This document shows, piece after piece, positions 35,756-51,989 of a stretch of 64,000 nucleotides of DNA (its first letter is position 1; the number at the start of each line of letters is the position of its first letter). A program made the translations under genes and the position numbers. The DNA lies in NCBI GenBank assembly GCA_022651005.1, contig JALCQD010000001.1:62001-126000 (forward strand), given 5' to 3'. Below the pieces are notes generated by a model. It did not search any database, had not been told where the DNA came from, and worked only from the letters and a program-made list of their open reading frames with translations. This stretch comes from Bifidobacteriaceae bacterium. Lineage in GTDB: Bacteria > Actinomycetota > Actinomycetes > Actinomycetales > Bifidobacteriaceae.

Positions 35756-35887
35756 CTCTATTCCATCTTTCCACAAGATTCCGGATTCTCGATGGTCGTA
35801 TTCGTGGATTCAAGAGAATGCAATCATCTCTTCAAACGGTGAAGAATCATCAGTCCCTAAGTGCCTCTCAGCCACCACTCGCCCACT

Positions 35888-35940: not shown

Positions 35941-35963
35941 TGCACACCGACGAAGGAGTCGAA

Positions 35964-37316
35964 ATGGGCACAGGTGCCTTATTGGTGGTGCTACTCATCG
36001 CCATAGCCTTGATCATCTTCCTGATCATCAAAATAAAAATGCATGCCTCAATGGCATTGCTCATCGCAGCATTCTTTGTTGCGTTTGTGACACAAGTCCC
36101 CCTCGGGAAAATAACCGACACAATAGAACAGGGCGTAGGAGATACCTTAGGATTCCTGACCCTCATTATTGGATTCGGTGCAGTTCTGGGAAAGTTGTTG
36201 GAAATCTCTGGCGGGGCGCAACGACTTGCGTCAACGATGCTGAGAACTTTTGGCAAGAAATATGCCACAATCATTATGGCAATTCTTGGTCTTATCTGCG
36301 GTATTCCTGTCTTCGTCGAAGTGGGCTTCGTTCTCCTCGTGCCCCTCGTCTTCGTCGTCGCAAAAGAAGCGGGCATCTCACGCGTCAAGGTCGGTATTCC
36401 ACTTGCTACCGCTCTCATGGTTGTTCATTGCATCCTGCCACCACATCCCGCCGCTACAGCTATTGCGGGTACACTGCACGCTGACATCGGAATGGTGATT
36501 CTGCTGGGTCTGTGCGTTGCTATCCCCTCTCTACTTATTGGCGGACCGCTCTACGCTCATTTCGCCATTCCCGCACACGACGCCGATCTCGAGGAAGTAT
36601 CGGATTCTCAAGCTCCCGCTGCATCGTATGCAGAGAAAGACGAAAAGGATCTTCCTGGCTTCGGCATCACGCTGTTCACCATCCTGCTGCCGCTACTCAT
36701 CATGGTCGTTCGCACCATTTGCGAGCGCACCCTTCCCGCCGATCTCGTCGCCATGAAGTGGATCAACGTCATTGGCAACCCCATCACAGCACTCCTCATT
36801 TCAGTACTGTTTGCCTACTTCTCCCTTGGACTCCACCGTGGCATGAAGCTCGATGCCCTGCAGAAACTCACAGATGGGTCTTTCGGTCCTATCGGCGGAA
36901 TTCTCCTTATCATCGGTGCCGGCGGAGCGTTCAATGCAGTTCTTACGGCCTCTGGAGTTGCCCCTGGACTTGCAGATGCTCTTTCTGGACTTCCCGTTAG
37001 CCCCATCATTCTCGCTTGGCTCATTGCGCTTGTGCTCCACTTTGCGGTTGGATCCGCAACAGTTGCCATGATCAGCGCTGCGGGGATCGTGCTGCCAATG
37101 CTTTCGGCAGATCCGAGCCTTTCGCCCGAGCTGCTCGCCCTTGCAATCGGTGCAGGCGCCATCGGCTTGACCCACGTCACCGATTCGCTGTTTTGGATGG
37201 TAAAGGAATACCTCCATATCAGCGTTCCTCAGGCTTTGAAAACGCTCACCGTCGGAACCACAATTACCTCCGTCGTCGCACTGGGTATGACTCTTCTGCT
37301 CAGCGTTTTCATTTAG
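35964..37316 (+). CDS. dsdX: GntP-family permease, probable D-serine transporter (DsdX-like)
   Basis: A 450-residue proton symporter of the gluconate permease (GntP) family with about 12 membrane segments. Typical features are [20 protein letters not shown] near residue 65-85 in part, the [16 protein letters not shown] motif near 113, and [12 protein letters not shown] near 155. AAGGAG lies 7 bases before the ATG at 35964, so the earlier in-frame start at 35940 is rejected. It is followed after 50 bases by D-serine dehydratase, which points to D-serine over gluconate as substrate; that is inference from context. Confidence 0.85.
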
Positions 37317-37366
37317 TTATACATTTGAAAACTTGTTTTAATCACCATCATCACAAAGGAGTAACA

Positions 37367-38716
37367 ATGGTAGATTCAGTCCTAGGAACGCCCATCGAGG
37401 AATGGACTCAGGAGTTCCCTCTTCTTAACGATCTCATGGAGTGCAAGGAAACGACTTGGTTCAATACAAAATTGAAGCCAACGAGTGAAGCTTTACCGGA
37501 TGTCGGGCTCACGGCGAAGGATATTGACGGCGCTGCTGATCGTCTCAAGCGTTTCGCTCCGCTCATCAAGGAGCTCTTCCCAGCAACAAAGGTGACAGAG
37601 GGAATCATCGAATCACCTCTCGTTGCTGTCCCAGATCAAAAGGATGCACTTGGGGAGCGTTACCAACAGCGTATTCCTGGTCAACTCTGGGCAAAGCTTG
37701 ACTCCGAACTGCCGATCTCTGGCTCTATCAAAGCACGCGGCGGCATCTACGAAGTTCTCAAGCATGCAGAAGATCTCGCCGTCGAGGCAGGGCTCCTCAC
37801 GTATGAGGATGACTATCGAAAGCTCGCTACCCCGGAAATGAAGAAGTTCTTCGGGCAGTACAAGATCGCAGTCGGTTCGACCGGTAATCTCGGCCTTTCC
37901 ATCGGCATCATGAGCGCCGCTCTCGGTTTCGACGCCTCAGTTCACATGTCGGCAGACGCTCGTCAGTGGAAGAAGGATAAGCTGCGTGCCAATGGAGTAC
38001 ACGTTTTCGAATACGAAGACGACTACTCTGTAGCCGTCGCAGCAGGCCGCAAGGAGTCCGAATCAGACCCCAACGCCTACTTCGTCGATGACGAAAATTC
38101 TCCAACATTATTCCTCGGATATGCCGTCGCAGCGCGCCGTCTCGCCGGACAGCTCAAGGCATATGACGTTCGCGTGGACGAAGACAACCCCCTCTTCGTG
38201 TATCTCCCGTGTGGCGTAGGCGGAAGCCCGGGCGGAGTCGCTTTCGGCCTGAAGACAGTCTTTGGAGACAATGTCCATTGCATCTTCCCTGAGCCAACGC
38301 ACTGCCCCTCAATGTTCGTGGGAGTGTACACAGGAAAGCACAACGAAGTCAGCGTCAACGATTTCGGCATAGATAACGTGACTGCGGCGGATGGCTTGGC
38401 ATGCGCCCGCCCCTCACGCTTTGTCGGTAAAGCGATGGAACACCTTCTTGATGGCTTCTACACCATTGACGATGATGAGCTGTATCGCATCGAGGCAAAT
38501 CTTCACGATACATCACACATCGATATCGAGCCTTCGTCTGCGGCTGGATTCGTAGGACCTTGGCGAGTCCTCGACGATATGGAGTACCGCAATCGCCTGG
38601 GTCTCGACGACGTGAAGATGGCGCATGCCACGCACATCGCATGGATAACCGGAGGTTCCATGGTTCCACGAGATGAAATGGCATCATACATCGCAAAGGG
38701 AGAAAGCCTTCTGTAA
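37367..38716 (+). CDS. dsdA: D-serine dehydratase (D-serine ammonia-lyase)
   Basis: A 449-residue fold-type II PLP enzyme turning D-serine into pyruvate and ammonia; the enterobacterial enzyme is about 440 residues. The PLP Lys is in [14 protein letters not shown] near residue 117, the Gly-rich phosphate loop [11 protein letters not shown] near 280, and [12 protein letters not shown] near 170 holds the substrate loop. AAAGGAG lies 6 bases before the ATG at 37367; the reading frame stays open upstream to 37016 but that part overlaps the permease gene out of frame. A terminator follows. Confidence 0.95.
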
Positions 38717-38730
38717 CACTGCCAATGCCG

Positions 38731-38776
38731 GGGCGGTCTCCATGCTCGTATCGGCATGGAGACCGCCCTGTTTTTC
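38731..38776 (+). terminator. Rho-independent terminator after dsdA
   Basis: A perfect 15-bp stem (GGGCGGTCTCCATGC with its complement), an 8-base loop, then TGTTTTTCT. It separates the dsdXA unit from the regulator gene, which must start from its own promoter or by read-through. Confidence 0.92.
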
Positions 38777-38792
38777 TACCACGAGGTGACTC

Positions 38793-39590
38793 ATGAGTGC
38801 GACTAAAAATGACGCCAAAGAAAAAAGACTCTCAAATAACTGGAAAACAGATGATTTTGAAAATTTCCTTGAATATTATGGGGAGGTGGCCACAAAACGA
38901 TCTTCTTCTCCTCGCGAGGAAAAAAGAAAAGATGCCGAGTATATTCGGCAGTTCTTTCCACTTGTCAAGTTCCTCGGTGAGGTCCTCGGATCTGAAACCG
39001 AGGTAGTGTTGCATGATGCCTCACGACCCGATAAATCTGTTGTCGCCATCGCAAACGGGCACGTGTCGGGACGATCTGTGGGCTCCCCTGCAACCGATCT
39101 TATGTTGAAAATCATGGGTGATGGCAACACCGACAACAAGGATTACGTCGTCGGATATGAGGGCAAGACACGACAGAACAAATACAATCTATTATCTTCC
39201 ACTTATTTCATCAGACGCGACGGAAGAATCATAGGAACTCTGTGCATCAATTCGGATCAGACACCTATGTACGCTTTACAGCAGGCGGTCAACCTCATCA
39301 ATCACTCTTATTTCCCAGAGGCTGAATCCTCCGGGGACTCAGAAGCACCACAAGAGGAGAACCTCATCACCTCCGTTGAGGATATTGCCACCCAAGTCAT
39401 CGCTGAAGTAAGCGCCAAAACGGGAGTAACTGCGGCGAAGCTCAGCGCAGAGCAGCGTCTCACAGTAATTCGAGAACTAAGCGATCGTGGCTATTTCAAC
39501 TTCAAGGGTGCCATTGCAAAGGTTGCGAAACAGCTGAACATCTCAGAATCAACAGCATATCGATATCTACGAATGGTTCAAGAAGAGTAG
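38793..39590 (+). CDS. YheO/DauR-type transcriptional regulator (PAS + HTH)
   Basis: A 265-residue regulator. A YheO-like PAS domain covers about residues 50-170 (FFPLVKFLGEVLG, EVVLHDASRPDKSVVAIANGHVSGR in part, YFIRRDGRIIGTLCINSD). A C-terminal HTH_22 domain covers about 205-262 (AEQRLTVIRELSDRGYFNFKG... and ISESTAYRYLRM as the recognition helix). DauR, the best-known member, represses D-arginine use. Placed right after dsdXA, this one most likely controls D-serine use. GAGGTGA precedes the ATG. It is not the LysR-type DsdC of enterobacteria. Confidence 0.88.
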   Translation: MSATKNDAKEKRLSNNWKTDDFENFLEYYGEVATKRSSSPREEKRKDAEYIRQFFPLVKFLGEVLGSETEVVLHDASRPDKSVVAIANGHVSGRSVGSPATDLMLKIMGDGNTDNKDYVVGYEGKTRQNKYNLLSSTYFIRRDGRIIGTLCINSDQTPMYALQQAVNLINHSYFPEAESSGDSEAPQEENLITSVEDIATQVIAEVSAKTGVTAAKLSAEQRLTVIRELSDRGYFNFKGAIAKVAKQLNISESTAYRYLRMVQEE

Positions 39591-39600
39591 GAGCTCCACC

Positions 39601-40020
39601 ATGCAACGCACCATCGTCACGTCCCCAGCAATCCTGTCGCAAAAATCTGAACCGGCCACGAAAAACGATGTCAATGCTGCCCGTGACCTCGCCGATACCC
39701 TCGCCGCGTCAGAAGGTCGCGCCGTAGGCATGGGTGCCAACATGATCGGAATCACCAAGCGCATCATCGTGTTCAAGAACGAGACGGAGAACAACCGCAT
39801 CGTCACCATGTTTAATCCAGAGATCCTGGAAAAGTACGGCCCTTATGAGGCCGAGGAAGAATGCCTGTCACTGGAAGGTTCTCGCACAACAACCCGCTAC
39901 CGCCGCATAACAGTGCAGTATCAAGACGCCGACTTTCACACGCACACGGCCGAGTACGAGGGATGGCCGGCGCAGATTATCCAACACGAAGTTGATCACT
40001 GCGACGGCATTCTCATCTAA
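39601..40020 (+). CDS. Peptide deformylase-like protein with altered active-site motifs
   Basis: A 139-residue member of the deformylase family (removal of the formyl group from nascent proteins). The metal motifs are present: ECLS at 87-90 with C88, and HEVDH at 129-133. However, the first motif, normally GxGxAAxQ, reads AVGMGANMIG (41-50), so the catalytic Gln is replaced by Met, and EGCLS is EECLS. The chain is shorter than typical enzymes (160-200). AGGAG precedes the ATG, 10 bases after the regulator gene. It may be a weak or repurposed deformylase, or act on other formylated peptides. Confidence 0.8.
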   Translation: MQRTIVTSPAILSQKSEPATKNDVNAARDLADTLAASEGRAVGMGANMIGITKRIIVFKNETENNRIVTMFNPEILEKYGPYEAEEECLSLEGSRTTTRYRRITVQYQDADFHTHTAEYEGWPAQIIQHEVDHCDGILI

Positions 40021-40021
40021 T

Positions 40022-40077
40022 ATTCTCATCTGATCGCTCGTACTTTGCCCGAAGATCATGGGCCGAGCGAGGAGAAT
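40022..40077. terminator. Possible hairpin between convergent genes
   Basis: Two paired blocks, ATTCTC/GAGAAT and CGCTCG/CGAGCG, enclose the 55-base gap between the deformylase-like gene and the ABC ATPase gene. There is no T run; the internal loops make it a weak candidate. Confidence 0.35.
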
Positions 40078-40859
40078 CAGTCCAAATTCCTGAAGTACGC
40101 GAAGAACTCCTGGGTCTCCTTGCGCATGGAGTGATCCATTACCTGTGACGGCGTGCCATATTCGGCAACGACGCCTTCCTGCAGCAACACCACCTTGTCG
40201 GCGGCCTTGTGCGCAAAGCTCATCTCGTGGGTAGCCATGAGAATGGTGGCTCCCTGCTCCTTGATCTCCGACACCATGCCGAGCACTTCGCCCACGAGCA
40301 TGGGGTCGAGTGCAGAGGTGATCTCGTCAAGCAGCAGCAGCTCCGGCTCTGTCAGCAGAGCACGCACAATCGCCACGCGCTGCTGCTGCCCACCCGACAG
40401 CTGATCCGGATACGCCCCGGCCTTCTGCTCCATGCCGATGCGCTCCAGCAGCTCCATGGCGCGCTTCTTTGCCTTCGCCGCCGGCCAATGATGCACTTCC
40501 GTGGCGGCGAGCGTCACGTTTCTCAACACGGTCATGTGAGGGAACAGATTGAACTGCTGGAACACCACGCCGATGCGGGAGCGAATCTGGTCCTGGTTGG
40601 CGTGCGGATCCGTGATGTCGGTGTCTCCCAGCCAGATCTGGCCATCGTTGACACGTTCCAGCAAGTTCACGCACTTCATGAGCGTCGATTTACCCGAACC
40701 TGACGGTCCCAGCAGCGCCACCACCTCGTGTGGCTGAATCTCGAAGGACACGCCCTTGAGCACCGCCGGCCCATTCTTGCCATAGGACTTCTTGACGTTG
40801 TCGACCGTGAGAACTGCCGTGCGCTCGCTCTTGCCCGTATTACTGACGATCCCGCTCAT
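40077..40859 (-). CDS. Polar amino acid ABC transporter, ATP-binding protein
   Basis: A 260-residue GlnQ/HisP-type ATPase. Walker A is GPSGSGKST near residue 49, the Q loop VVFQQFNLFPHM near 90, the signature LSGGQQQRVAIVRAL near 148, Walker B LLLLDEITSALDP near 172 (with Ile where most have Pro), and the H loop ATHEMSFA near 205. I chose the ATG at 40859, which overlaps the permease stop by 4 bases. With the permease and binding protein upstream it forms a complete importer. Confidence 0.93.
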   Translation of the reverse strand: MSGIVSNTGKSERTAVLTVDNVKKSYGKNGPAVLKGVSFEIQPHEVVALLGPSGSGKSTLMKCVNLLERVNDGQIWLGDTDITDPHANQDQIRSRIGVVFQQFNLFPHMTVLRNVTLAATEVHHWPAAKAKKRAMELLERIGMEQKAGAYPDQLSGGQQQRVAIVRALLTEPELLLLDEITSALDPMLVGEVLGMVSEIKEQGATILMATHEMSFAHKAADKVVLLQEGVVAEYGTPSQVMDHSMRKETQEFFAYFRNLD

Positions 40860-41683
40860 ACCGCACCTCCGCTCAGCTCGCGCTTGCGCAACTTGTCGGA
40901 ATACCAATCGTTCAAGATGATGAACGGAATGCTCAGAAGAATGAACAGAACGCTGGCCACCACATACGGAGTGAAGTTGTACGACTGAGCCACGTCAATC
41001 TGTGCGGCACGCACGGCGTCGACTGCGCCCAGCACGGAAATAAGGCCAACGTCCTTCTGCATGGAGATGAAGTCGTTCATGAGCGCAGGAGCGATTTTTC
41101 GCAGCGCCTGCGGGATGATGACCAAACGCAGCGTCTTGCCAACAGACAGGCCAAGAGACCGCGCGGAGGCACGCTGGGAAGGATGCACGCCTTCAAGCCC
41201 GGCACGCAGAACCTCCGCCACATAGGCCGCGTATCCCAGAATGATGGCGACGGTTCCGAGAATAGCGGGATCGATGCGTCCCGGGAAAATCTCAAGACCT
41301 GGAATGCCAAAACCGATGAGATACAGGATCACAATCATAGGAATGCCACGCATGACCGTGGTGTACAAGATTGCCAGCATGCGCAGAGGGAAAAGAATGG
41401 CGGATTTCGACGTGCGCAGCAGCGCGATCACAATGGAGAGAATAGCCACGCCCACCACCGCGTAGAGCAGCACCTGAACGTTGAGCCAGAGGCCTTCGAG
41501 CACGTGCGGCAGCGACGACATGAAATACTTGCCCGAGAAGAATGACTCGTGGACTCGCGGCCACCCCGGAGACATTTTGAGCCCCACGACGATGACCAAC
41601 GCCAGCACGACCGAGCTGACGATGCTGGTAATAATCGAACGGATATGCTCGTTGCGCCGCGTGGCCCTGCGCCCGAGCTCCAC
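40856..41683 (-). CDS. Polar amino acid ABC transporter, permease (5' end disturbed)
   Basis: A 275-residue permease of the His/Glu/Gln/Arg three-TM family (about five membrane segments). The EAA loop EVLRAGLEGVHPSQRASARSL, in part near residue 160, meets the ATPase. The readable frame begins at a GTG at 41683 that has no Shine-Dalgarno. In a neighbouring frame just upstream, a 31-codon ORF (41704-41799) looks like the missing N terminus, so the gene probably carries a one-base deletion or a sequence error near 41704-41711. If the shift is real, translation from the GTG may still give a working permease, because all membrane segments are in this part. Confidence 0.85.
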   Translation of the reverse strand: MELGRRATRRNEHIRSIITSIVSSVVLALVIVVGLKMSPGWPRVHESFFSGKYFMSSLPHVLEGLWLNVQVLLYAVVGVAILSIVIALLRTSKSAILFPLRMLAILYTTVMRGIPMIVILYLIGFGIPGLEIFPGRIDPAILGTVAIILGYAAYVAEVLRAGLEGVHPSQRASARSLGLSVGKTLRLVIIPQALRKIAPALMNDFISMQKDVGLISVLGAVDAVRAAQIDVAQSYNFTPYVVASVLFILLSIPFIILNDWYSDKLRKRELSGGAV

Positions 41684-41703
41684 GTCGCTAATTGCTGAAG
41701 TAT

Positions 41704-41799
41704 TCAGTTTGAGGCCCCCGTGTGATCCGGTGTAACAGCAAGCGCCGGAGTCCCTGAGGACACCGGCTGCTTGTTGATTTCACTCACTCGTTCTGACAT
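41704..41799 (-). other. Out-of-frame putative N terminus of the permease gene
   Basis: An ATG at 41799 opens a 31-residue frame, MSERVSEINKQPVSSGTPAL and so on, which stops at TGA 41704-41706. The permease frame upstream of its GTG is open and reads KLNTSAISDVELGRR once one A is added to the AAACTG run (41705-41710). The joined product would be a natural soluble leader before the first membrane segment. Sequencing artefact, phase-variable run and true mutation cannot be told apart here. Confidence 0.5.
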
Positions 41800-41824
41800 C
41801 CCATTAGGTTTCACTTCACCATTT

Positions 41825-42694
41825 TTACTTCAGCTCGGTGACATCCGTGGTGTACTGTGCAAGCCACTTATCTTGCAGTGTTTTAAGGCTACCGTCCTTG
41901 CGCATGCCGTCGATAGCGGCCGAGACCTTGGCGGTGAGCTTGGAACCCTTTGGCAGTACGATCCCCAAGCCAGCAGGCTCTTCTGAACCGGCAATGCGGC
42001 CGAGCACCTTGGCGGACTTCACCTGGCCGGAGTCCACGATGTAGACGCTTTCCACGGTGGAGGTTGCAAGGGCATCGATCTGTCCGGCGTCGAGCGCCTG
42101 GGCAAGTGCGGCGTCATCGTTGAAGGTCTGCACGTTGCTGTTGATCTTCTTCTTTGCCTGCGTATACGCTGGCGTTCCCACCATGGCACCCACGGTGGCA
42201 CCCTTGAGGTCGGAGAGGCTCGTTGCCTTTGCGTACTTGGAATCCTTCTTGACGACAACCGACGTGGTGTCGTTGTAGTAGCTGCTCGAGAAGTCAACGG
42301 CCTTCTTGCGCTCAGCTGTCACAGAGAACTGCTGGATGTTGAGATCCCAGTCCTTGGCACCTGGAGCGATGGCAGCATCGAAGGATGTGCGTGTCCACTT
42401 GACATTTTTCTTGGAGAAACCGAGCTTTTCTGCAACCTTGTAGGCGATTGCGGCCTCGAAGCCCTGACCGGACTCCGGCTTGTTCTTCATGACCCAAGGC
42501 TCGTAGGCGGGGTCACCCGTTGCGATAGTGAGCGTTCCCGGCGTCACCGTCTGCTGGGTGATGTCGCTGCTTGACGCAGTCGAGCTCGAGCTTGCCGACG
42601 AACCGCCACACGCCGAAGCCCCCAATGCGAGCGCCCCTGCAGCAACAACGGCTACCGCAGAACGCACGATCTTCGTGACCGATACAGATAGCAT
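41825..42694 (-). CDS. Polar amino acid ABC transporter, substrate-binding lipoprotein
   Basis: A 289-residue solute-binding protein (SBP_bac_3). The signal peptide MLSVSVTKIVRSAVAVVAAG and following residues end in a lipobox-like LGASAC, with Cys near residue 32 as lipid anchor. The mature part shows IATGDPAYEPWV, GFEAAIAYKVAEKLG, DWDLNIQQFSVTAERKKAVDF and the ligand-facing TSLSDLKGATVGAM. I chose the ATG at 42694 because AGGAGG lies 6 bases upstream. It is the first gene of the SBP-permease-ATPase unit; glutamine or glutamate is a guess at substrate. Confidence 0.93.
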   Translation of the reverse strand: MLSVSVTKIVRSAVAVVAAGALALGASACGGSSASSSSTASSSDITQQTVTPGTLTIATGDPAYEPWVMKNKPESGQGFEAAIAYKVAEKLGFSKKNVKWTRTSFDAAIAPGAKDWDLNIQQFSVTAERKKAVDFSSSYYNDTTSVVVKKDSKYAKATSLSDLKGATVGAMVGTPAYTQAKKKINSNVQTFNDDAALAQALDAGQIDALATSTVESVYIVDSGQVKSAKVLGRIAGSEEPAGLGIVLPKGSKLTAKVSAAIDGMRKDGSLKTLQDKWLAQYTTDVTELK

Positions 42695-42773
42695 TCCAAT
42701 CCTCCTCATAGATCGAATGCGCAAGTGCGCACCACCACACAATAGCGTGCGGCAGCGAAAGGAGCCACCCGCC

Positions 42774-42803
42774 CGCTATCACCAGATTTGATAGCGCGCT
42801 ATC
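42774..42803 (-). promoter_or_regulatory. Operator-like palindrome upstream of the amino acid ABC operon
   Basis: The perfect 14-bp palindrome GATAGCGCGCTATC (42790-42803) and a further CGCTATC at 42774-42780 give three copies of one 7-base half-site in alternating direction, 80-110 bases before the binding-protein start. This is a typical layout for a dimeric repressor site. Confidence 0.55.
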
Positions 42804-42874
42804 GGTGGCCGCCATGTCACGGTCGGCCGCTGAGAGAGTGTGCTCCGCGTCACGTCGCGACACTCACCACATTT

Positions 42875-43363
42875 CTATTCGAGCGTAAAACCGGAGAACA
42901 CGAAGCCCGGCGATACGACGCACGACACCAGGGCGTCGCCGTCCGTGGGCAGCGTGCGCTGCCACACTCCCTTGGGAACAACCACGTGACCTGGGGTCGT
43001 CTTGCTGCCCAAGTTATACACAGTGTCAAGCTCCGGAGTCTCACCCGTTCCGCCGAATCCGATTTTCACCTGTGCCGGACCGTGCCACAGCCAGATTTCG
43101 TCGGCGTCCACCTTGTGCCATTCACTGAAGTCGCCCGCGGGAAGCAGAAAATAGATGAGGGATGAGAGTGGGCGAGCGTCCCGCGATTCCTCTTGCGCCA
43201 CGCTCTCCGACTGCCAATCCCTGTGAAACCATCCGCCCTCGGGATGAGGTTCGAGTCCCAGTCGCGCTATGGTGTCGCGAGCGTCATCGCTCAGCGGCGG
43301 CATCAACTCCGCATGAATGGGAGTGGAGGGCTGCTCGTATCCGTCGCCCTGTCCCGTCGTCAT
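42875..43363 (-). CDS. Cupin_5 (DUF985) family protein
   Basis: A 162-residue small beta-barrel protein of the DUF985/cupin_5 family. It begins with a helical part (DARDTIARLGLEPHPEGGWF) typical of the family and continues with SSLIYFLLPAGDFSEWHKVDADE in part and WLWHGPAQVKIGF, then the WQRTLP and VVSPGFVFSGF strands. Family members are poorly defined; some are thought to bind metal or sugars. Its ATG overlaps the amidohydrolase stop by 4 bases, and that gene in turn overlaps the SAHH-like gene, so three enzymes are made from one transcript. Confidence 0.88.
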   Translation of the reverse strand: MTTGQGDGYEQPSTPIHAELMPPLSDDARDTIARLGLEPHPEGGWFHRDWQSESVAQEESRDARPLSSLIYFLLPAGDFSEWHKVDADEIWLWHGPAQVKIGFGGTGETPELDTVYNLGSKTTPGHVVVPKGVWQRTLPTDGDALVSCVVSPGFVFSGFTLE

Positions 43364-44793
43364 TTGCTGTTCTCCTCCGCTACTGCACCGCCGTTGCCGG
43401 GTGCGTCATCATCACGATCGTCAAAGGCGCCGTCGTTGTAGACGAGACGCCCAGAGATCACTGTGGCCCTATTGGTACCGCCACCGTTGCGCACCAGCCG
43501 TTCCAATGTTTCCTCGATGCCACGCGGCCCGCTGACGTCGGTGTCGATAGCAAAGAACGCGAGGTCGGCTCGCGCACCCGCATTAATCTGCCCGATGCGA
43601 TCTGAGCCCACATTCATTCCCATGGCTTCCGCGCCGCCCAAAGTGAGCATACGAATCAGTCGATGCGACAAATCCGCCTCCTTGTATCCCTGAGAACGGG
43701 CGAGATCAAATAGCTCCGCGCAGTCGTCGAGCACGTCAAGGCTTGGCGAGCTGGACAGCGAATCCGTGCCGATTGACACCAGATTGCCTTCCCTCAAGTA
43801 ATCCGCAATGGGCGCCTCGCTCAAAGTGGAAGTGATGCGATTGGACCGAGGGCACAACGCCACGCTCACACCTCGCTGACGCAAAAGGCGGCGATCCTCC
43901 TTATCCGCGTACACCCCGTGCGCAATATGAACGTCGGGCCCCAAGGCTCCCAGCTGATCCACGAACTGAATCGCCGAAGCGCCAAAGCCATGCTTTTTCA
44001 GCTCGCGGTAGCTCTTCCACTCGTTGTTTTGCCATTCCACGCCTGTGTATGTGGTGAGATCGGCGGGCCTGCTCCCCCGTTCCAGGCGAGTCTCTCCCAA
44101 GTGAATGTGCAGCCTCATGCCCAAGCGTCGCGCAATGTCGGGCATATCGAGGAAGGGCTCGGATTCCAAGGAGTAAGGAGCATGCGGGCTGATGCCCACG
44201 GATTCCAGTCCCATGTCGGAAATGGCAGTGAGACGCTCCACCAGCTGACGCTTGCCTTCTGCGCGCCACTGCTCGTTGGACCAATCCATGATCTCCCAAT
44301 ACGCCACGCCACGCAGTCCCTGGGAGCGTAACGCTCCGATGGCCTCGATATTGGTCACAACATCGGCGGCGGCTGTGGTGCCATTCTCTACGAGCTTGCG
44401 AGCGCCGGCATCCGCCGAATCACGCCAGATACTTGGCGGCTGCTGCGTGAGCGCATCGTAGACCTTGTTGAAACCAAGCTCCCAACCACGGAAGTCCTCG
44501 TAGTCGCCCTTGCCCACCGATTCCATGTTGGTGTATTGCAAATGCGTGTGCGAGTTCACCAGACCGGGCGTCATGATGCCATCCCAGTGGCGCTCCACCA
44601 GGCGCAGTCTCGGCCCGAACTCCTCTTTGAGGGTGCTGATGACCCACTCGCGCGTGCCGATGTTGATGACGCGCCCCTCGTATACCGCTACGGAGCCGTT
44701 TGGAATGACGGGAGCTGTGACCGGAATCACGAGCTGTGCCGAGTAAACGGTGACTTGGGCGCCCCACAGCGCTGTTCCGAAAGCCGGGTTCAT
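43360..44793 (-). CDS. Amidohydrolase of the adenosine-derivative deaminase type (MTA/SAH deaminase-like)
   Basis: A 477-residue metal-dependent amidohydrolase (AtzA/TrzN, MTA/SAH-deaminase group). The metal ligands are seen as HTH in GLVNSHTHLQYT near residue 79, the His in LHIHLGET near 230, the His in VHIAHGVYA near 295, and the Asp in SIGTDSLSSSPS near 343. ISPHAPYS near 198 and CPRSN near 315 fit deaminases acting on nucleoside-like substrates. The start overlaps the SAHH-like gene stop by 4 bases. Context suggests deamination of S-adenosylhomocysteine or a breakdown product; that is inference. Confidence 0.8.
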   Translation of the reverse strand: MNPAFGTALWGAQVTVYSAQLVIPVTAPVIPNGSVAVYEGRVINIGTREWVISTLKEEFGPRLRLVERHWDGIMTPGLVNSHTHLQYTNMESVGKGDYEDFRGWELGFNKVYDALTQQPPSIWRDSADAGARKLVENGTTAAADVVTNIEAIGALRSQGLRGVAYWEIMDWSNEQWRAEGKRQLVERLTAISDMGLESVGISPHAPYSLESEPFLDMPDIARRLGMRLHIHLGETRLERGSRPADLTTYTGVEWQNNEWKSYRELKKHGFGASAIQFVDQLGALGPDVHIAHGVYADKEDRRLLRQRGVSVALCPRSNRITSTLSEAPIADYLREGNLVSIGTDSLSSSPSLDVLDDCAELFDLARSQGYKEADLSHRLIRMLTLGGAEAMGMNVGSDRIGQINAGARADLAFFAIDTDVSGPRGIEETLERLVRNGGGTNRATVISGRLVYNDGAFDDRDDDAPGNGGAVAEENSK

Positions 44794-46304
44794 GCGCGAT
44801 GCTCCTTCTCGCCACTGTTCTCGCTGGCAATTTCGTCTTCAAAGCGGCTCAGCCGCCAATCGTACGGCACAGTGTGCGTCGCCGTGACCTCTTGCCCTCG
44901 CGTCGACAATGCCACACGAGCGATGTGCTCGTCGGCCGAAGAATCCAGTGTCATCAGGCGCTTCTCCAAGCGTCCCCGATGTTTCAGCAGATATCCAATC
45001 GCCATTGTTTGCACAGCGAAACTCAAATCCATGATGTCGATGGGATTGCCATTGCCGGCCGTGTAGTTGACGCCGTCGCCGTCGCTGAGCAGCCTCACCG
45101 TGGAGCCGCCGGGCACGTCGAGATCACGCACTGCGGCGTTGGCACGTGCGAAGCCTGTGATGTCATCGAGGGCAAGCTCGTTGGAAATGCCTCCGATGAC
45201 GCCCAGGATGGCCCGCTCTCGCATACGTCGCATGGTCTCAAGGCTGACGGTGTGGCGCACGCCGGTCGCAGATGTCACCATGTCGACATGGCCCGCAACA
45301 GAGGCGAGGTCCGCGGTCTCAAAGCCATCGAAGACCGCGCGCAAGCATGCCACCGGATCAATATCGCATATGGTGACCTTCGCGCCCAACGCGCGAATGC
45401 GGCGTGCGAAACCCGCACCAACCGGCCCATACCCCACCACGGCAACGGAGGCGCCGGCAAAAGCGTCGGAACCGAGAATGTCGAGCATCGTCGTCACGCA
45501 GGTCTCGCCGGTTCCGTGCGCATTGTCAAAATTCGTTTTCAGCGCGGAATCGTTGACCGCGATAACGGGGTATGTCAGCGCACGGTCACGGTCCATTGCC
45601 GCGAAGGCGCGAACGCCACTGGTGGTTTCCTCCGCTACTCCGATGAGATTCGCCGCCATCTGGGGACGTTCGCGCATCAGAAGTCGTGCAAAACTGGCGC
45701 CATCGTCGATGAGAATGTCCGGCTGAATGTCGTCAAGCAGTTTCAAGGCCTCTGTGCGGCGCCGCTCGGCGGACCACGCGCGCTGGGCCGACACCTCGAT
45801 GCCGCGCTTCTCCAGCTCCTCGATGACGCGGGGATCCGTGGACTCACCGTCACAGTAGATGCCAACAACGGCGCCTGCGGCTGCGAGCTCCTCGAGGAAC
45901 ACGGCAGTCTTAGGTTCCAGAACAATGCTGATGGCGAAGCGCACACCCGTAAGTGCACCATCTGCCGCAAGTTCAGCAATGAGTTTTCTGGTTACCGGCA
46001 TCCGCATGCGAGCGTGGTCGATGGCCTCAGCCCCACTCATTTGCGGCAACGGCGCGGAAGCTTCCTTATCGGTGAAATGTGAGGCATGAGCGGGTAATAC
46101 GGCACCCGTTGCGGCCTCGGCATCTCCTGCTAGCACAGCATCATACGTAAAATCGGCACCGACCTCATCTGCAGCAAGTCTCATGCCCCACTGTTGCGCC
46201 TGTGCCGCAATATCGGAGGCATCCTGCGGAACATATAACGAGGAGCCCGCCAACGAACGGTTCGTATCTCGCGACACCACACGCGCCCACTGCGCAAAAC
46301 TCAT
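44790..46304 (-). CDS. sahH: S-adenosylhomocysteine hydrolase-like protein (divergent)
   Basis: A 504-residue homologue of SAH hydrolase. Kept from the family are the redox and NAD parts: EETTSG (225-230), NDSALKTNFDN with K256, D260 and N261, and the Rossmann loop GYGPVGAG (291-298). Altered are substrate residues: the position of human H55 is Val in VLEPKTAV (128-135), that of H301 is G372, that of H353 is N420 in GNGNP, and C195 is T265. The C-terminal KPDHYRY peptide is missing and about 95 extra residues stand at the N terminus. The start ATG at 46304 has GAAGGGG upstream. It may act on another nucleoside thioether. Confidence 0.85.
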   Translation of the reverse strand: MSFAQWARVVSRDTNRSLAGSSLYVPQDASDIAAQAQQWGMRLAADEVGADFTYDAVLAGDAEAATGAVLPAHASHFTDKEASAPLPQMSGAEAIDHARMRMPVTRKLIAELAADGALTGVRFAISIVLEPKTAVFLEELAAAGAVVGIYCDGESTDPRVIEELEKRGIEVSAQRAWSAERRRTEALKLLDDIQPDILIDDGASFARLLMRERPQMAANLIGVAEETTSGVRAFAAMDRDRALTYPVIAVNDSALKTNFDNAHGTGETCVTTMLDILGSDAFAGASVAVVGYGPVGAGFARRIRALGAKVTICDIDPVACLRAVFDGFETADLASVAGHVDMVTSATGVRHTVSLETMRRMRERAILGVIGGISNELALDDITGFARANAAVRDLDVPGGSTVRLLSDGDGVNYTAGNGNPIDIMDLSFAVQTMAIGYLLKHRGRLEKRLMTLDSSADEHIARVALSTRGQEVTATHTVPYDWRLSRFEDEIASENSGEKEHRA

Positions 46305-46378
46305 GTTGAACCCCTTCGCCTTGGCCAGTGGCAATCACCACCGCAATCGCCCATTAGCCTAGCAAGCGGTCACACCTT

Positions 46379-47320
46379 TCACGTACACGAATATCCGGAA
46401 CGCCAGATCACCGCTCCGCCGATCAGCACCACCGCGCTCGCAGCGACGGCCCACCACGGGAATCCGGGGATATCGGGAGGATCGCCAGCAGAGTCAATGT
46501 CCGCTTGCGGCGTGGGGCTCACGCGCTCCCCTGTCACCAGGATTCGCTGCGAGTTGATGCCAAGCGGCGTGCACGTCACCAGCGTAACGAGGTCCCTGCC
46601 TTCCACCGGCCGCAGTGCCTCGGTTTCGTCGGACTCGACGACCTGCACCTCTACGACCTTGTAGGTGAGCACTTCGTCGAGGATGGTGAGTGTAAAAGTA
46701 TCGTCGTCTTTCACCTTGTTGAGATGAGTAAAGAGCGTGGAGGAGGCCAAACCCCTATGGCCCGTAAGAACCGAGCGTGTTCCAGAGCCTCCCACGGGCA
46801 GTGACGTTCCCTCAAGATGACCGATTCCATTTTTGAGTGTCTCGTCCGACGTGCCGTGGTATATGGGCAAGTCCACGTCGATAGAAGGTATTTTGATGCG
46901 GCCCATGAGGCCTGAAGAATCGACGGAGAGCAGATTGGAGTACGAGAGATCGGCGTCTGCACCAGCGTCCTCGCCGGCACCTTCGCCTGCACCAGATGTG
47001 GCGGAAGGAAGGCGATTATTGGCAGCGACCGCCGCAGAAAACACGAGAGTCTTGTTGTACCGCCGCGCGAGAGCGATCTGCTCACTTGCAGTGGGCTTCG
47101 CCTTCTCGACCTCCCGCGGATAGCGAGCGACGATTTCTGACTGATTGTACTGAGACACCCATGCGGCGGTGCTGGGATAGAGCATGAGCAGCACGCCGCC
47201 ACACACGAGAACGACGATGGCAATTGTGAACCACTGCGGTCGCCAACGCCGAGTACGAGCATCCGCGTTTGCGTTGCCTCGCTCCTGTGCTTTGGGGGCC
47301 GCAGTGGCTTTCAGTGTCAT
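46379..47320 (-). CDS. srtC: Class C sortase (pilin polymerase)
   Basis: A 313-residue membrane transpeptidase that links pilin subunits. There is an N-terminal membrane segment (31-50). The catalytic set is His in LTGHRGL near residue 185, Cys in VTLVTCTP near 248 and Arg in INSQRILVTG near 257. A second membrane segment lies at 287-307. The usual lid motif (Asp-Pro-aromatic) before the catalytic core is not seen; in its place is an acidic Gly/Ala stretch (SGAGEGAGEDAGADAD). Position after the major pilin fits pilus assembly. Confidence 0.92.
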   Translation of the reverse strand: MTLKATAAPKAQERGNANADARTRRWRPQWFTIAIVVLVCGGVLLMLYPSTAAWVSQYNQSEIVARYPREVEKAKPTASEQIALARRYNKTLVFSAAVAANNRLPSATSGAGEGAGEDAGADADLSYSNLLSVDSSGLMGRIKIPSIDVDLPIYHGTSDETLKNGIGHLEGTSLPVGGSGTRSVLTGHRGLASSTLFTHLNKVKDDDTFTLTILDEVLTYKVVEVQVVESDETEALRPVEGRDLVTLVTCTPLGINSQRILVTGERVSPTPQADIDSAGDPPDIPGFPWWAVAASAVVLIGGAVIWRSGYSCT

Positions 47321-47347
47321 CGTCGTCGCCTTCTGTGATTTATCAAC

Positions 47348-47389
47348 CTCCGGTAGGCGGATACTTTTTGCAGCGCCCGCCCACCGGAG
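47348..47389 (-). terminator. Hairpin between major pilin and sortase
   Basis: Paired blocks CTCCGGT/ACCGGAG and GGCGG/CCGCC, with one mismatch and a 16-base loop, lie in the 93-base gap. There is no T run on the minus side. It probably lowers sortase expression relative to pilin or protects the pilin mRNA. Confidence 0.55.
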
Positions 47390-47413
47390 AACTCACATCA
47401 CTATTGTGTTGCT

Positions 47414-48955
47414 TTACTGCTGAGCACTGACGCGCATGCGGTGACGTTTGATGGCGATGAGGCCACCAGCCGTCACCAGCATCGCGATACCGATGCCGAT
47501 GATGACCACAGTTCCCGCCGATCCGGTAAGTGGCAGACCGGGGATGATGGGCGGGTAGTTGGTGATAGTTTCTCTGGTGATATAGGTGCCACCATTTGCC
47601 GAAATTGTCACTTTTCGCGGAGTTGCATCAAGAACGTATCCTGCTGGAGCCACGGTTTCCACAATCCAATAATCTCGGCTCTGTGGATCACCGTTATTGC
47701 CGATCCACAAGAGGCCAAATTCCAGGGTTCCGCCAGCCACTGTGCCATTACCAATAGGACTTTCGCCCTTTGCGCCACTCACGTCATCATAGATCTCGAA
47801 TACCGCGCCATTGAGACTTTCATCCGTATTGCCATCAACTTTCGAAATGATGAGCTTGCCCCATTCAGTGGACTGCACTTCGCTCTTTAGATCATTCTCA
47901 TTGACGAAGGTTTCTGCTTTGTTCTCATACTTACCTACCTCCAACACCTTTGTTTTAAAAGTCAAAACGATATCAAGGCCCATGGAGCCTTCTTTTTTAA
48001 GAGCCTCATCTAGTTTTTTAACACCTTGCTCCGTAAAGATGACAGAAAGCTTATTCCCATTCGTAGCCGATGGATCTACGATGTTGAAGTCTTTCTCTGA
48101 AGAAATCTCGACACCTGCCACACTGACAACTGCCGTTGATTCGACGTATTCAAGTTTGGGATCCAAAGTGTCATCCATTTCGAATCGAATAAGCTCATCG
48201 GTGTCGTTCAATGCAGGAAGTGTCTGAGTTACCGACCAGCCAATGACGCCACCCAAGTGGTCATCAGGATCTTCCGCTTTCTTCACGGGATCCTCCACGG
48301 TGTTGTTCTTAGGATAAGCGTGCACGTCATAGAGCCACTGATTGGTGGCATCGCCATTTTCGTCAACAAGATTGAGAGGAATGGTGACTAAGAATGGCGC
48401 AGTTTTCGTCACAATATCGTGGAGTCCAGAACCTATTTCCTCTATCAAATAGAGCCCCAATGGAAGATTCGAGAAGACTGCAATTCCTTTTTCATTAGTT
48501 CTCTGGATTGGAGTATTCCCTATTCTGAAACCACCATCTTTTATTTCGTTGACTCTATTAGCAACATCCGAGGTTTTAAGATTCTGCCATCCCTCAGCCG
48601 TCGTGAGATTGAAATCAAGTGCTGCACTATCTGGATCATTAGGATCTGCAACTGTACCAAGCACTGCCGTAGCAGTAAAAGTCACTCCTGAAAGCGGCTC
48701 ACCTCCCACCGTCGATTCACCTGCATCGTCTACGAGCTCCATGCCATTATTGACATCTCCAGTTTCGGCTCCATCAAGCTTATGGAGCGTCAATGATCCA
48801 CTCTCAGGTGCGCTCGGATCTGTCGGCTGCACTGAAGATGGCGCCGCTGCCGCCACTCCCGCTCCTCCGAAGAGCCCTGCAAAAATCAATCCTGCCGCTC
48901 CCATCAGCGCAACAGCGCGGTGCTTCCAAGAACGACCTACCTGTGTCTTATCCAT
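47414..48955 (-). CDS. Major pilin subunit with LPLTG anchor (FimA-like)
   Basis: A 513-residue secreted backbone pilin. The signal peptide ends near residue 38 after AAAA. The pilin motif YPKN near residue 213 provides the Lys for the isopeptide link, and an E-box-like ETVAPAGYVLD lies near 434. The end is LPLTG near 472, a membrane segment and a basic tail. Cna_B-type domains are expected in the middle. I prefer the ATG at 48955, with AAAGGA at proper distance, over the GTG at 48964. Base composition is somewhat more AT-rich than in the enzymes around it. Confidence 0.92.
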   Translation of the reverse strand: MDKTQVGRSWKHRAVALMGAAGLIFAGLFGGAGVAAAAPSSVQPTDPSAPESGSLTLHKLDGAETGDVNNGMELVDDAGESTVGGEPLSGVTFTATAVLGTVADPNDPDSAALDFNLTTAEGWQNLKTSDVANRVNEIKDGGFRIGNTPIQRTNEKGIAVFSNLPLGLYLIEEIGSGLHDIVTKTAPFLVTIPLNLVDENGDATNQWLYDVHAYPKNNTVEDPVKKAEDPDDHLGGVIGWSVTQTLPALNDTDELIRFEMDDTLDPKLEYVESTAVVSVAGVEISSEKDFNIVDPSATNGNKLSVIFTEQGVKKLDEALKKEGSMGLDIVLTFKTKVLEVGKYENKAETFVNENDLKSEVQSTEWGKLIISKVDGNTDESLNGAVFEIYDDVSGAKGESPIGNGTVAGGTLEFGLLWIGNNGDPQSRDYWIVETVAPAGYVLDATPRKVTISANGGTYITRETITNYPPIIPGLPLTGSAGTVVIIGIGIAMLVTAGGLIAIKRHRMRVSAQQ

Positions 48956-49025
48956 TGTGCTCACTTCCTTTCATCCCGTGCCGTTGTGTACGACGAAATC
49001 GGTGGTGTGTTGTGTATAGCGCGAA

Positions 49026-51989
49026 CTATTCGCCAGTGTCTGTTGTCGATAAACCACTCGTCGCATGTGTTCTCCTTTGTGTGCGATACAGATGAACTCC
49101 AAAACCAACAATGAGGGTGAGGATCACGGTGAGACCACCCGCAATCCAATAGGCGTCCGAACTCGAGCCACCCGTAAGCGGCAAAGAGGGAATATCAGGA
49201 CGGGTATTCACGAAAGCTGTGTCGAATTGAAAATCCAGCGCTGTTGCCGAAATAGTGAAGGGATACTTCGCGGAATCGAGAACATAGCCGAAAGGTGCCT
49301 CTGTTTCGACAAGCTCGTACTCGCCCCAGGCAAGACCCTCCACTTTGAAAGAACCGGCAGCGGAGTCAGTGTCCTTGCCTTCATACATCTCTTGACCCGT
49401 ATAATCTTCAACGATAATCTCGTCACCTTTTGGAGCAACGGGAGTGATGGTCCAGGTGGATCCCGCCAGAGGGGTTGTGCTCCCGTCAGCACTCTTTTCA
49501 ACTTTCTTCCACGTCACCGTGCCCCTCTTGGCTGTGTTGACAAAAGCTACATCAAAAGAAAATCCTGAGGCCGTAAGCGTGAAAGGATGCGGAGTGCTAT
49601 CAAACACATAACCATCGGGAGCGGATTCTTCGGTGAGCGTGTAGTCCCCTAGTTGCAAGTCCATGACCAAGAAGTGTCCATCCCTGTCGTCCTTGTCTTG
49701 ACCGAGATTATCCTCAATGGTGATCGTTTCGGTGGTTGGTGCCGTTCTCTTCAGGGTCCATGTGGTTCCTCCGAGAGATTCCCCCGAATCGTTTTTCTTC
49801 TGCCACGACACGTTTGCCACATCAGGCTCAGGTAGAGGTTTGTTGGTGTAAACGACCATAACTTCGTCGCCTGATTCGATATCTTCTACCATGAAGTCTG
49901 TCGCAGCAGGAGCCGTAACTTCTACAGGATCACTTGTTGTGCCATCCGCATGCTTGATCGTGTATGTATACTTCACGAACTCGTATCCCGCATACTCAGA
50001 CGGCGTCATGAGCATTCCCTCGTCGATCTTTACGCTGGCATTCTGACCTTCTGGAGTGGTAAATTGCAATGCCCACTGGGCCATATGGGATGCGCCAATG
50101 GTAGGGAGCGTCGAAACAGCACTTCCCGTTGAACAATTGCGCCCGCCAGCCGTGATTTCGCAGAGTTCCACGTCTCCGTTTGCATTATCTGCCGTTTTCT
50201 GCACCTTCATGGGCCATCCGGCAATAGTCGACGGATTGTTCCCATCTGTATCCGTCACGCTTTTTTGGACTCGAATGGATGCCGAGCACTGCGAGCGCTG
50301 CGCGATGGTATGCAATACATCGTCCAGGTCCTCAAAATTAGTGGCATCGTAGGTGTCGGCCACACTGGAAATGGCGTTGAGATTAACACGTGACGCCTCT
50401 GGCATGCCAATGCCGACAGTCAGAACGGATGTTCCTTCCGACTTCAGATAGTTTGCCGAGGCAATCGCCTCCTCTATAGCTCGAAGATCTGTGGCGGAAC
50501 CAATGCCCGCACTGGCGTCTGATAGGTATCGTGTGGGATTGCCATCTGTCAACATGATCACCGCATCCCATTCCGTTCCCACTAAGCGCAACGCATGATC
50601 CCAATTTGTGGCAACATCCTTCACTGCCTGGAATTTATCAATCGCATCCGTCACCGTGGCAATTCCTGCTGCATCCGCTATTGATGTTGCAGGCAACGCC
50701 TGATAGGCCGTCTCGTTAAACCCATAAAGGCCCATGTACGTATTGGTCGACCCGAGCCCTCTGGACGATGCGAAAGACTTGGCGGCATCCTTCATCTTCT
50801 CGATTTCCGTCTCATCGACAGAACCAGATTGATCAATGATCAACGCAACCTTTAATGGATCGTCGGTTAAGCACATTCCCGGGAAAGCGGGATTGTTGCG
50901 AACGTGGGACCATTTCCCAGACACAGTTCGGTACCTGGAATCAGAAATATGAGTTGCCTGAGTAGACAGAGGTGTCGAGACGTTGCCGTCGCCTCCCGAA
51001 ATACGAAAAGCATACCGATACTGACCTATTGAGTCCTGAGTTCCCAAAGCTAAATTGTCAACTTTCGAAAAAGGGTCGGCCACGCTATATTCAAGAATCC
51101 AATACGGCAATCTATCCCAAAACCATCCCGGTGCAACCTTGATACGGCATACGCCATCTTCACGAGTAAAACCGTCTTGCACTCCACCAGTCGTGCAATA
51201 CAAAGCATTGTCCAATGTCGTCGGAAGCGCCGGAGGTGTGCTTGAGGAGCTTTGGACTGCCACGTACACAGCTCCGTTCAACCCTTTGATGGTATCCGTC
51301 GCACCATCACGGTCTCCGGCCGCAGTGACGGTAATGGTTCGCGTCGTACCAGTAGCCCAGTTGTATCCATCTCCGCTTGCGAAGCCTACAACCTCAGAAT
51401 CTTCCTGCTCAGTATCCTCCTTGGTTGAAATTTCATCATCCGACGTCTCATCGAGGGCAGCTTCCTCGTCCTCGCTTTTCTGTGCAGGTTCTTCTTGTTC
51501 CTGTGCGTCAGAGGGCACGTTGGTTTCGGTCGACTCAGCATCGCTCGTTCCGGAGGATTGAGAGGATTCAGGAGATCCAGCCGATTCCGGAGATTCCGTA
51601 TTTGCAGCCTCATTGCTGCCATCTGTCTCCGGAGAGGATTCAGGGGAAGAACCCGAAGACACATCTTCGGACACGCCGTCATCGTTCACTACTTTTGTGC
51701 CATCACCGGCCTGTTCGCCGTCTACGGCCACGTTATCTACTGACGACTTTTCAGACCCATCTGTGTCGTCGTTCGTCGTCGAAGCGTTCGCCACCGTTGG
51801 AGTGGGATCGTTGCCCGGCGGGGACGAATCTCCAGAGGCTTTCACAGGCAGAAGAGATGACACGACGAGAACAATGGCAGCAACAACACTCACAACGAGA
51901 ATGAAACGACTGCGCACGCTGGCAGCATCTTTCCCGGCAAGGATCTTGAGCGGTGCTCCAAGATATTTTCGAAGGGTTTTCGAGAGCAT
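49026..51989 (-). CDS. Large pilus tip adhesin with von Willebrand A domain
   Basis: A 987-residue cell-wall protein. An N-terminal signal/membrane segment (27-50) is followed by a Ser/Glu/Asp-rich stalk (about 55-195) and a beta-rich part. A vWA domain begins near 380 with the metal site DQSGS (DxSxS) and the later MLTDGNPT segment. Two Cna_B-like repeats with ETAP-type E-boxes follow (TEESAPDGYVFD and VETEAPFGYVLD). It ends in LPLTG, a membrane segment and a basic tail. The start is the ATG at 51989 with AGAGGT before it. The first gene of the pilus unit, it is the likely adhesin at the tip; the host or matrix target is unknown. Confidence 0.88.
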   Translation of the reverse strand: MLSKTLRKYLGAPLKILAGKDAASVRSRFILVVSVVAAIVLVVSSLLPVKASGDSSPPGNDPTPTVANASTTNDDTDGSEKSSVDNVAVDGEQAGDGTKVVNDDGVSEDVSSGSSPESSPETDGSNEAANTESPESAGSPESSQSSGTSDAESTETNVPSDAQEQEEPAQKSEDEEAALDETSDDEISTKEDTEQEDSEVVGFASGDGYNWATGTTRTITVTAAGDRDGATDTIKGLNGAVYVAVQSSSSTPPALPTTLDNALYCTTGGVQDGFTREDGVCRIKVAPGWFWDRLPYWILEYSVADPFSKVDNLALGTQDSIGQYRYAFRISGGDGNVSTPLSTQATHISDSRYRTVSGKWSHVRNNPAFPGMCLTDDPLKVALIIDQSGSVDETEIEKMKDAAKSFASSRGLGSTNTYMGLYGFNETAYQALPATSIADAAGIATVTDAIDKFQAVKDVATNWDHALRLVGTEWDAVIMLTDGNPTRYLSDASAGIGSATDLRAIEEAIASANYLKSEGTSVLTVGIGMPEASRVNLNAISSVADTYDATNFEDLDDVLHTIAQRSQCSASIRVQKSVTDTDGNNPSTIAGWPMKVQKTADNANGDVELCEITAGGRNCSTGSAVSTLPTIGASHMAQWALQFTTPEGQNASVKIDEGMLMTPSEYAGYEFVKYTYTIKHADGTTSDPVEVTAPAATDFMVEDIESGDEVMVVYTNKPLPEPDVANVSWQKKNDSGESLGGTTWTLKRTAPTTETITIEDNLGQDKDDRDGHFLVMDLQLGDYTLTEESAPDGYVFDSTPHPFTLTASGFSFDVAFVNTAKRGTVTWKKVEKSADGSTTPLAGSTWTITPVAPKGDEIIVEDYTGQEMYEGKDTDSAAGSFKVEGLAWGEYELVETEAPFGYVLDSAKYPFTISATALDFQFDTAFVNTRPDIPSLPLTGGSSSDAYWIAGGLTVILTLIVGFGVHLYRTQRRTHATSGLSTTDTGE

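Follow-up and report, generated by a model that had tools for sequence, protein, structure and literature searches.

Enzymes of the S-adenosylhomocysteine (SAH) hydrolase (SAHH) family are divided, in one study, into those that prefer S-inosylhomocysteine (SIH) and carry an HxExK motif, in which Glu and Lys contact the hypoxanthine and His matters for catalysis, and those that prefer SAH and carry HxTxE(Q) (PMC10978960). In a second study, His55 is assigned as the water-activating base and Asp131 to the C4' proton, His301 stabilises the intermediate and gates the homocysteine channel, and His353 touches the base via its backbone (PMC4647836). The present analysis concerns a gene unit in a 64,000-nucleotide stretch of Bifidobacteriaceae bacterium DNA (GCA_022651005.1, contig JALCQD010000001.1, positions 62,001 to 126,000; the whole stretch is referred to as the window) which encodes an SAHH-like protein (SAHHL), a deaminase-type amidohydrolase (AMID) and a Cupin_5 protein (CUP). 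This trio, described in the original prediction with 4-base overlaps at both the SAHHL/AMID and the AMID/CUP junctions, was confirmed by open reading frames (ORFs) and Pfam matches. Six genes make up the unit as a whole: the trio is followed by a PAAT-type ATP-binding cassette (ABC) importer (40077-42694), not included in the original prediction, that consists of a binding protein (SBP), a permease and an ATPase. From the sequences we give an even chance to the unit being an accessory operon for the uptake and breakdown of an adenine nucleoside of the SAH/methylthioadenosine (MTA) kind, with SAH or a compound close to it as the likeliest substrate.

The distribution of SAHHL was examined in 59 genomes (relatives and the window's own genome), of which 9 carry the type on inspection of the loci; in 396 genomes of the order, where a profile search found 49 with the type at E <= 1e-75; and in 396 genomes of the phylum, where 252 matched and, among the 29 of these loci that were read, the type turned up in a single distant genome, G301. 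As only 29 of the 252 phylum loci were read, units beyond the order may have been missed. The pooled sample comprises 55 loci; neither the intact copy L081_1 nor L124_1, a spurious frame, is among the 55 sequences counted, and the canonical control L028 was disregarded in the SAHH alignment. Gene content was derived with tblastn; longest-ORF calling gave false antisense ORFs in GC-rich loci.

His55 is lost in all 55 SAHHL sequences (Val in 15, Ile in 11, Thr in 29), and His301 is replaced throughout as well (Gly in 54, Met in one), so that the His-Phe gate (GHF) of SAHH and SIH hydrolase (SIHH) is absent. The invariant substitution of His353 by Asn is less telling because the base contact of this residue is made through the backbone. 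On the base side, Glu57 and Lys59 of HxExK are kept in 55/55, and instead of the adenine motif HxTxE(Q) of SAHH the protein has xLExK or xIExK. The NAD Rossmann motif and the 3'-oxidation residues typical of SIHH and SAHH are present: Thr157, Lys186, Asp190 and Asn191 are kept in every sequence and Glu156 in 53 (Gln in L154 and L155). Asp131 is kept in every sequence too. Residues specific to SAHHL in comparison with three intact chains include P141, R217, S239, S355 and T362. SAHHL was not filed as SIHH because two defining features of that enzyme, the motif His and the gate His, are lacking.

In a quick IQ-TREE tree of 60 rows, with 23 of the 55 SAHHL sequences sampled, SAHHL forms one clade (SH-aLRT 100) separate from the intact SIHH-type and SAHH-type proteins and from an altered group of f34 genomes; the exact position of the G301 sequences is unsure because their branches are long. 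SAHHL aligns best with archaeal-type chains. The window protein scores 615.4 bits against NCBIfam NF004009 'adenosylhomocysteinase' (cut-off 485), and the more distant L047 protein 250.8 bits, under the cut-off; the name of this family implies SAH hydrolysis, which the missing histidines render doubtful. The f34 group consists of 15 altered SAHHs (L053-L066 and L068) in which His55 is lost, His301 is Gly or Ala, an Arg follows the Asp pair and His353 is kept, and in the phylum search 14 of the 15 f34 genomes with an altered SAHH have two or more SAHH matches. Equating this group with SAHHL was rejected given its separate clade and the lack of an AMID match near five of the 15 (L082-L086).

SAHHL adjoins AMID in 55/55 loci and the order SAHHL-AMID-CUP-SBP-permease-ATPase, in some cases with an inserted nucleosidase, is found in 50, a constancy that argues against a chance arrangement. 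The exceptions are L042, in which the transport genes are rearranged and located upstream; L081, the G301 locus, where the importer is upstream and a cupin was not found; L154 and L155, in which SAHHL and AMID are the only unit genes found; and L160, with no cupin at the threshold used. The unit spans five families of one order and is present in part also in G301, elsewhere in the phylum, but its distribution is patchy: G002 has it, whereas G001 (88% complete), of the same genus, is without it. Between CUP and SBP, three g2 genomes (L044, L045, L046) have two genes on the opposite strand, for a small carboxymuconolactone-decarboxylase-like protein and for a second small cupin. At L048 (G004:C6, 5590-9243), an importer of the same type is encoded beside an Asn-type PNP_UDP_1 nucleosidase, with no SAHHL, AMID or cupin match in the 20 kb covered; this arrangement is perhaps a shorter version of the pathway.

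Several loci point to a probable origin of SAHHL in a tandem of two SAHH-type genes. In G301, which carries a full-length ordinary SAHH elsewhere in the genome, the importer genes (SBP, permease, ATPase) come first, followed by those for an intact HxExK enzyme, for SAHHL in its altered form and for AMID. A truncated SAHH gene is located upstream of SAHHL in G732 and G619 (L154 and L155); the L155 copy reaches 28.3 bits to AdoHcyase_NAD (cut-off 27), the L154 copy is without a Pfam match, and together the two copies can be aligned with intact SAHH (E 1.6e-8). An N-terminal extension is present in 52 of the 55 SAHHL sequences, and in hhalign comparisons its profile matches the start of the SAHH NAD domain over 46 columns (E 1.8e-6, probability 89.7) as well as the truncated L154/L155 partner (E 1.4e-8). 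An intact SAHH partner was not found in the other 54 units. We infer that the upstream partner of a tandem ancestor probably shrank and became fused to SAHHL as an N-terminal vestige. Another genome has, in addition to the SAHHL of its unit and a full-length SAHH, a third ORF of the SAHH type at G663:C1:1829277-1829639 (438 aa; PF05221 match of 72 bits over positions 8-134).

The genes that accompany the unit appear to support a deaminated (inosyl) route. A PNP_UDP_1 nucleosidase is encoded at the unit in 9/55 loci, and in all nine, as well as in L048, it has Asn (SN for SD) at the position of the purine-contacting Asp of MTAN (adenine N6/N7), which we take to be Asp197 in E. coli; Asp is kept at this site in the MtnN of the window genome and in the seven nucleosidases encoded beside luxS. 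Purine nucleoside phosphorylases serve as an analogy here, and the comparison suggests that the Asn-type nucleosidase acts on 6-oxopurines. In G732 and G619, an inosine-uridine nucleoside hydrolase is encoded one gene off SAHHL-AMID, on the opposite strand and with a luciferase-like monooxygenase gene in between; the region downstream of SAHHL-AMID in these loci (L154 1918-5874 and L155 1822-5929) encodes the monooxygenase, the hydrolase and a sugar-type ABC binding protein. For CUP, relatives in the PDB are 1znp, 1yud and 3loi, and the 3loi/3lzz chain matches the window protein at E 7.5e-14; 3LZZ is listed as a GDP-bound Cupin_5 relative in a table of PMC11594714, and PMC8704077 describes the function of this cupin family as little understood and cites a report of a possible phosphoglucose isomerase.

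Among the 55 unit-bearing genomes, luxS is present in 30 and full-length SAHH in 24, never both, and G030 (83% complete) is the only one with neither; full-length SAHH was counted from matches far above the SAHHL scores and is split in G780. Seven of the 29 unit-bearing g24 genomes have luxS, in every case at the unit: in six of them it lies immediately upstream in divergent orientation, in the seventh past the ATPase end, and an Asp-type nucleosidase adjoins luxS in all seven. In bifidobacterial genomes that carry SAHHL, no SAHH-type protein was found besides it: the window genome has no other SAHH ORF, and full-length SAHH is missing from all 16 genomes of its family that bear the unit. The original prediction called for a check for mtnN and luxS elsewhere in the genome; both are present, away from the unit, along with MetE and an inosine-uridine hydrolase, so the unit is not the sole SAH route and would be accessory, supplementing the housekeeping one.

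If the operon serves uptake and breakdown, the PAAT importer would bring in the nucleoside, and the presence of an importer makes this role likelier than internal recycling of SAH alone. AMID, in which H82, H84, H231, E234, H292 and D344 are invariant in 9/9 aligned sequences, so that the metal ligands and the HxxE of the superfamily are complete, would take off the 6-amino group to yield the inosyl form. SAHHL is predicted to bind this hypoxanthine nucleoside via the conserved Glu/Lys pair, to oxidise the 3'-OH with bound NAD and to abstract the C4' proton with its conserved machinery, and then to expel the 5' group. Elimination without the normal addition of water, or with an altered water addition, seems likelier for this last step than SIHH-type hydrolysis, since SAHHL is without the pair of histidines that deal with water and the 5' oxygen. 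The cupin, a putative accessory enzyme in the original prediction, might bind the purine or act on the released keto-sugar, and an accessory 6-oxopurine nucleosidase or inosine hydrolase may remove the hypoxanthine in some relatives; the whole unit would work beside, not in place of, the housekeeping route. The inosyl two-step route of the original prediction, in which AMID makes SIH and SAHHL hydrolyses it, thus finds partial support: it fits on the base side, where the Glu/Lys of HxExK, the constant presence of AMID, the Asn-type nucleosidase and the g24 luxS genes all agree with it, whereas plain SIH hydrolysis is doubtful given the three lost histidines and the intact HxExK enzyme that G301 keeps alongside. 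In its most specific form, which we put forward only tentatively, SAHHL would be an NAD-dependent lyase without 5'-hydrolysis that acts on imported inosyl nucleosides and frees homocysteine or another 5' group together with a 4',5'-didehydro or keto nucleoside, to be finished by the cupin and a 6-oxopurine nucleosidase, and that stems from a tandem two-chain ancestor with the partner reduced to the N-terminal vestige.

A number of observations weigh against this interpretation. The best NCBIfam deaminase match of AMID, 5'-deoxyadenosine deaminase, gives 126.7 bits (cut-off 522) and MTA/SAH deaminase 63.9 bits (cut-off 779). In profile comparisons, the solved structures closest to AMID are 3lnp and 4dyk/4gbd, the latter presumably PA3170, an MTA deaminase, followed by 7ww2 (8-oxoguanine deaminase), 4v1x (atrazine chlorohydrolase) and 4f0r (MTA/SAH deaminase), all within ten bits of one another: 8-oxoguanine deaminase scores 90.8 and atrazine chlorohydrolase 90.5 bits, against 93.8, 91.5, 91.4 and 84.0 for the MTA/SAH type. 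The substrate class of AMID is not fixed because it falls far under every deaminase cut-off and scores nearly equally to other classes. Binding proteins of the PAAT family, as we understand them, hold their ligand with an Arg on the carboxylate side and an Asp on the amine side; judged by eye, the Arg is conserved in 12/12 aligned SBP sequences and the Asp in only 6/12, so an alpha-amino acid ligand is not assured, and naming the ligand from the pocket residues was dropped. The g24 linkage of luxS to the unit may be a single ancestral event, and no luxS adjacency by position was seen in the 23 luxS-bearing unit genomes outside g24. No SAH/SAM riboswitch was found in window positions 35000-50000, where the sole match above the gathering score (E-value mode) is a tRNA, nor at the gathering threshold within the loci L040-L046, which gave one tRNA only. 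The polar SAHHL-specific residues R217, S239, S355 and T362 could stand in for the lost histidines. AlphaFold models of SAHHL and SBP built from two-sequence alignments had a mean pLDDT (predicted local distance difference test) of 47.6 and 37.3 and were set aside.

The polar SAHHL-specific residues could serve in an SIHH-like reaction, in which AMID makes SIH and SAHHL, with other residues replacing the histidines, hydrolyses it to inosine and homocysteine as in archaea. We regard this as unlikely: the ExK motif and nearly all redox residues are conserved, an inosine product is suggested by the inosine-uridine hydrolase that two genomes encode one gene off, and luxS is linked in g24, but both the water/leaving-group base His55 and the gate His301 are lost in 55/55 with a replacement that is only putative, and the intact HxExK enzyme of G301 would be redundant beside the altered one. 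A still smaller chance is given to SAHHL as a base-releasing enzyme that forms the 3'-keto intermediate and then loses hypoxanthine at C1', a side reaction of SAHH made dominant. The residues of SAHHL that handle the 5' group are gone, and every SAHH set-up tested in one study is reported to have yielded free nucleobase as a by-product (PMC10978960); however, Asp131, assigned to the C4' proton chemistry, is kept in 55/55, and the Asn-type nucleosidase (9/55) or the nearby inosine hydrolase (2/55) would be redundant. Base release is less likely for these reasons.

Alternatively, the imported substrate might be an N6-modified adenosine, such as the tRNA breakdown product t6A, from which AMID would remove the N6 group while the rest of the unit salvages inosine. 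The TRZ/ATZ superfamily includes N6-alkyl aminohydrolases and TRZ/ATZ relatives are among the NCBIfam matches of AMID, and a ligand with a carboxylate and without a free amine would suit the SBP residue pattern. With such a substrate it is hard to see what an SAHH-type enzyme of 3'-oxidation and C4'-proton chemistry would do, as the 5'-OH of the nucleoside is free, and the pfs-luxS neighbour in g24 points to SAH, so we consider it improbable. Least probable of all, SAHHL would be what is left of a two-chain SAHH and serve, without catalysis of its own, as a partner or regulator, as the intact and altered tandem of G301, the truncated partner in G732/G619 and the fused vestige elsewhere might imply; against this, the NAD motif and the 3'-redox residues are near-invariant across a divergent clade, even though no intact partner was found in the other 54 units.

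The features of the unit in the window, a genome region from a genome of 2.16 Mb, are listed in Table 1; SAHHL sites in the table (e.g. 138-142, 382, 430) are numbered on the 514-aa form that starts at TTG 46334. The Pfam assignments exceed their cut-offs: AdoHcyase 86.2 bits (cut-off 25) and AdoHcyase_NAD 86.4 (27) for SAHHL, Amidohydro_1 128.8 (25) for AMID, Cupin_5 PF06172 123.1 (25) for CUP and SBP_bac_3 91.9 (26.4) for SBP. The permease has a TIGR01726 (HEQRo-type) domain at 58.3 bits (cut-off 42.2), and the best NCBIfam match of the ATPase, GlnQ, is at 248.1 bits, under its cut-off of 379.

Table 1. Coordinates of the SAHHL-AMID-CUP-importer unit and its diagnostic sites in the window.
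Feature	Position	Strand	Basis
SAHHL, 504 aa from ATG 46304 (514 aa from TTG 46334, longest ORF)	44790..46304	-	Pfam
SAHHL N-terminal extension, probable vestige of the start of a second SAHH NAD-binding domain (TNRSLAG..., ~residues 14-59)	46158..46295	-	hhalign
SAHHL V-L-E-P-K, residues 138-142: Glu and Lys of HxExK kept, His55 replaced by Val	45909..45923	-	
SAHHL residue 382: gate/catalytic His301 replaced by Gly	45189..45191	-	
SAHHL residue 430: His353 replaced by Asn	45045..45047	-	
AMID, 477 aa, superfamily holding MTA/SAH/5'-deoxyadenosine deaminases	43360..44793	-	Pfam, NCBIfam
AMID HxH metal motif (H82, H84)	44542..44550	-	invariant 9/9
AMID HIHLxE motif (H229, H231, E234)	44092..44109	-	H229, H231, E234 invariant 9/9
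AMID metal Asp (D344)	43762..43764	-	invariant 9/9
CUP, Cupin_5 (DUF985), 162 aa	42875..43363	-	Pfam PF06172
SBP, PAAT-type substrate-binding lipoprotein (SBP_bac_3); longest ORF start 42742	41825..42694	-	Pfam
ABC importer permease, PAAT family	40856..41683	-	Pfam, NCBIfam
ABC importer ATPase, PAAT family, start codon uncertain	40077..40907	-	Pfam, NCBIfam

On one side, the operon is adjoined by genes for a sortase-like protein and two large LPxTG-type wall proteins (46379-52037, minus strand) which, from translations read by eye, resemble a sortase-assembled pilus locus. On the other, a plus-strand block (35940-40020) converges on the importer; its successive genes encode a GntP-type permease, a dehydratase resembling D-serine dehydratase (these two were recognised by eye), a PAS_6/HTH_22 regulator of the YheO-like kind and a peptide deformylase, and the same block is kept in L040.

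The operon would imply ABC import of an SAH-like nucleoside and would give bifidobacteria and related actinobacteria an additional route that is based on hypoxanthine; if SAHHL is indeed a lyase, it would represent a fourth mode of SAH opening, one tied to uptake. Moreover, the window gene scores as a standard adenosylhomocysteinase, and if the lost histidines mean another reaction, models that take it as such contain a wrong step. An adenosylhomocysteinase is credited to B. longum BB-46 (PMC8660834) and ahcY is listed for B. infantis (PMC8533434); either may or may not be the SAHHL gene. Among the matches listed from open-licence PMC papers, which are weak evidence of absence, none was found on this gene set, none on SAH uptake via an ABC transporter or substrate-binding protein, and only PMC10978960 was relevant to the inosyl route.

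Of the described systems, the SIHH and DadD pair of M. jannaschii is alike in combining an SAHH-family protein that has the Glu and Lys of HxExK with a deaminase-type amidohydrolase. Compared with that SIHH, SAHHL is without the motif His, the gate His301 and His353 (55/55) and bears the N-terminal vestige of a second NAD domain; furthermore, the SAHHL unit is linked to an importer and usually a cupin, and its host has luxS or full-length SAHH in 54/55 cases. The MTA route of P. aeruginosa, which Guan is said to have described in 2012 (a reference listed in PMC6302742), is similar in that deamination, reportedly by PA3170, is followed by an enzyme acting on a hypoxanthine nucleoside, methylthioinosine phosphorylase; AMID is only a distant relative of 4dyk/4gbd, and to our knowledge that route includes neither an SAHH-like step nor an importer. 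The best solved relatives of SAHHL include 5tov (E 3.9e-62), which we take to be the T. maritima SAHH, and the P. furiosus SAHH 7r37 (E 2.2e-60), both of which keep all three histidines, unlike SAHHL. The SAHHs of these two species are reported to prefer SIH (PMC10978960). The Pfs (MtnN)-LuxS detoxification of SAH deals with the same metabolite class and is encoded beside the unit in seven g24 genomes, but works on the adenine form, without deamination or an NAD enzyme. Finally, the window SAHHL would by score receive the NF004009 name of adenosylhomocysteinase, a name that its lost histidines render doubtful.

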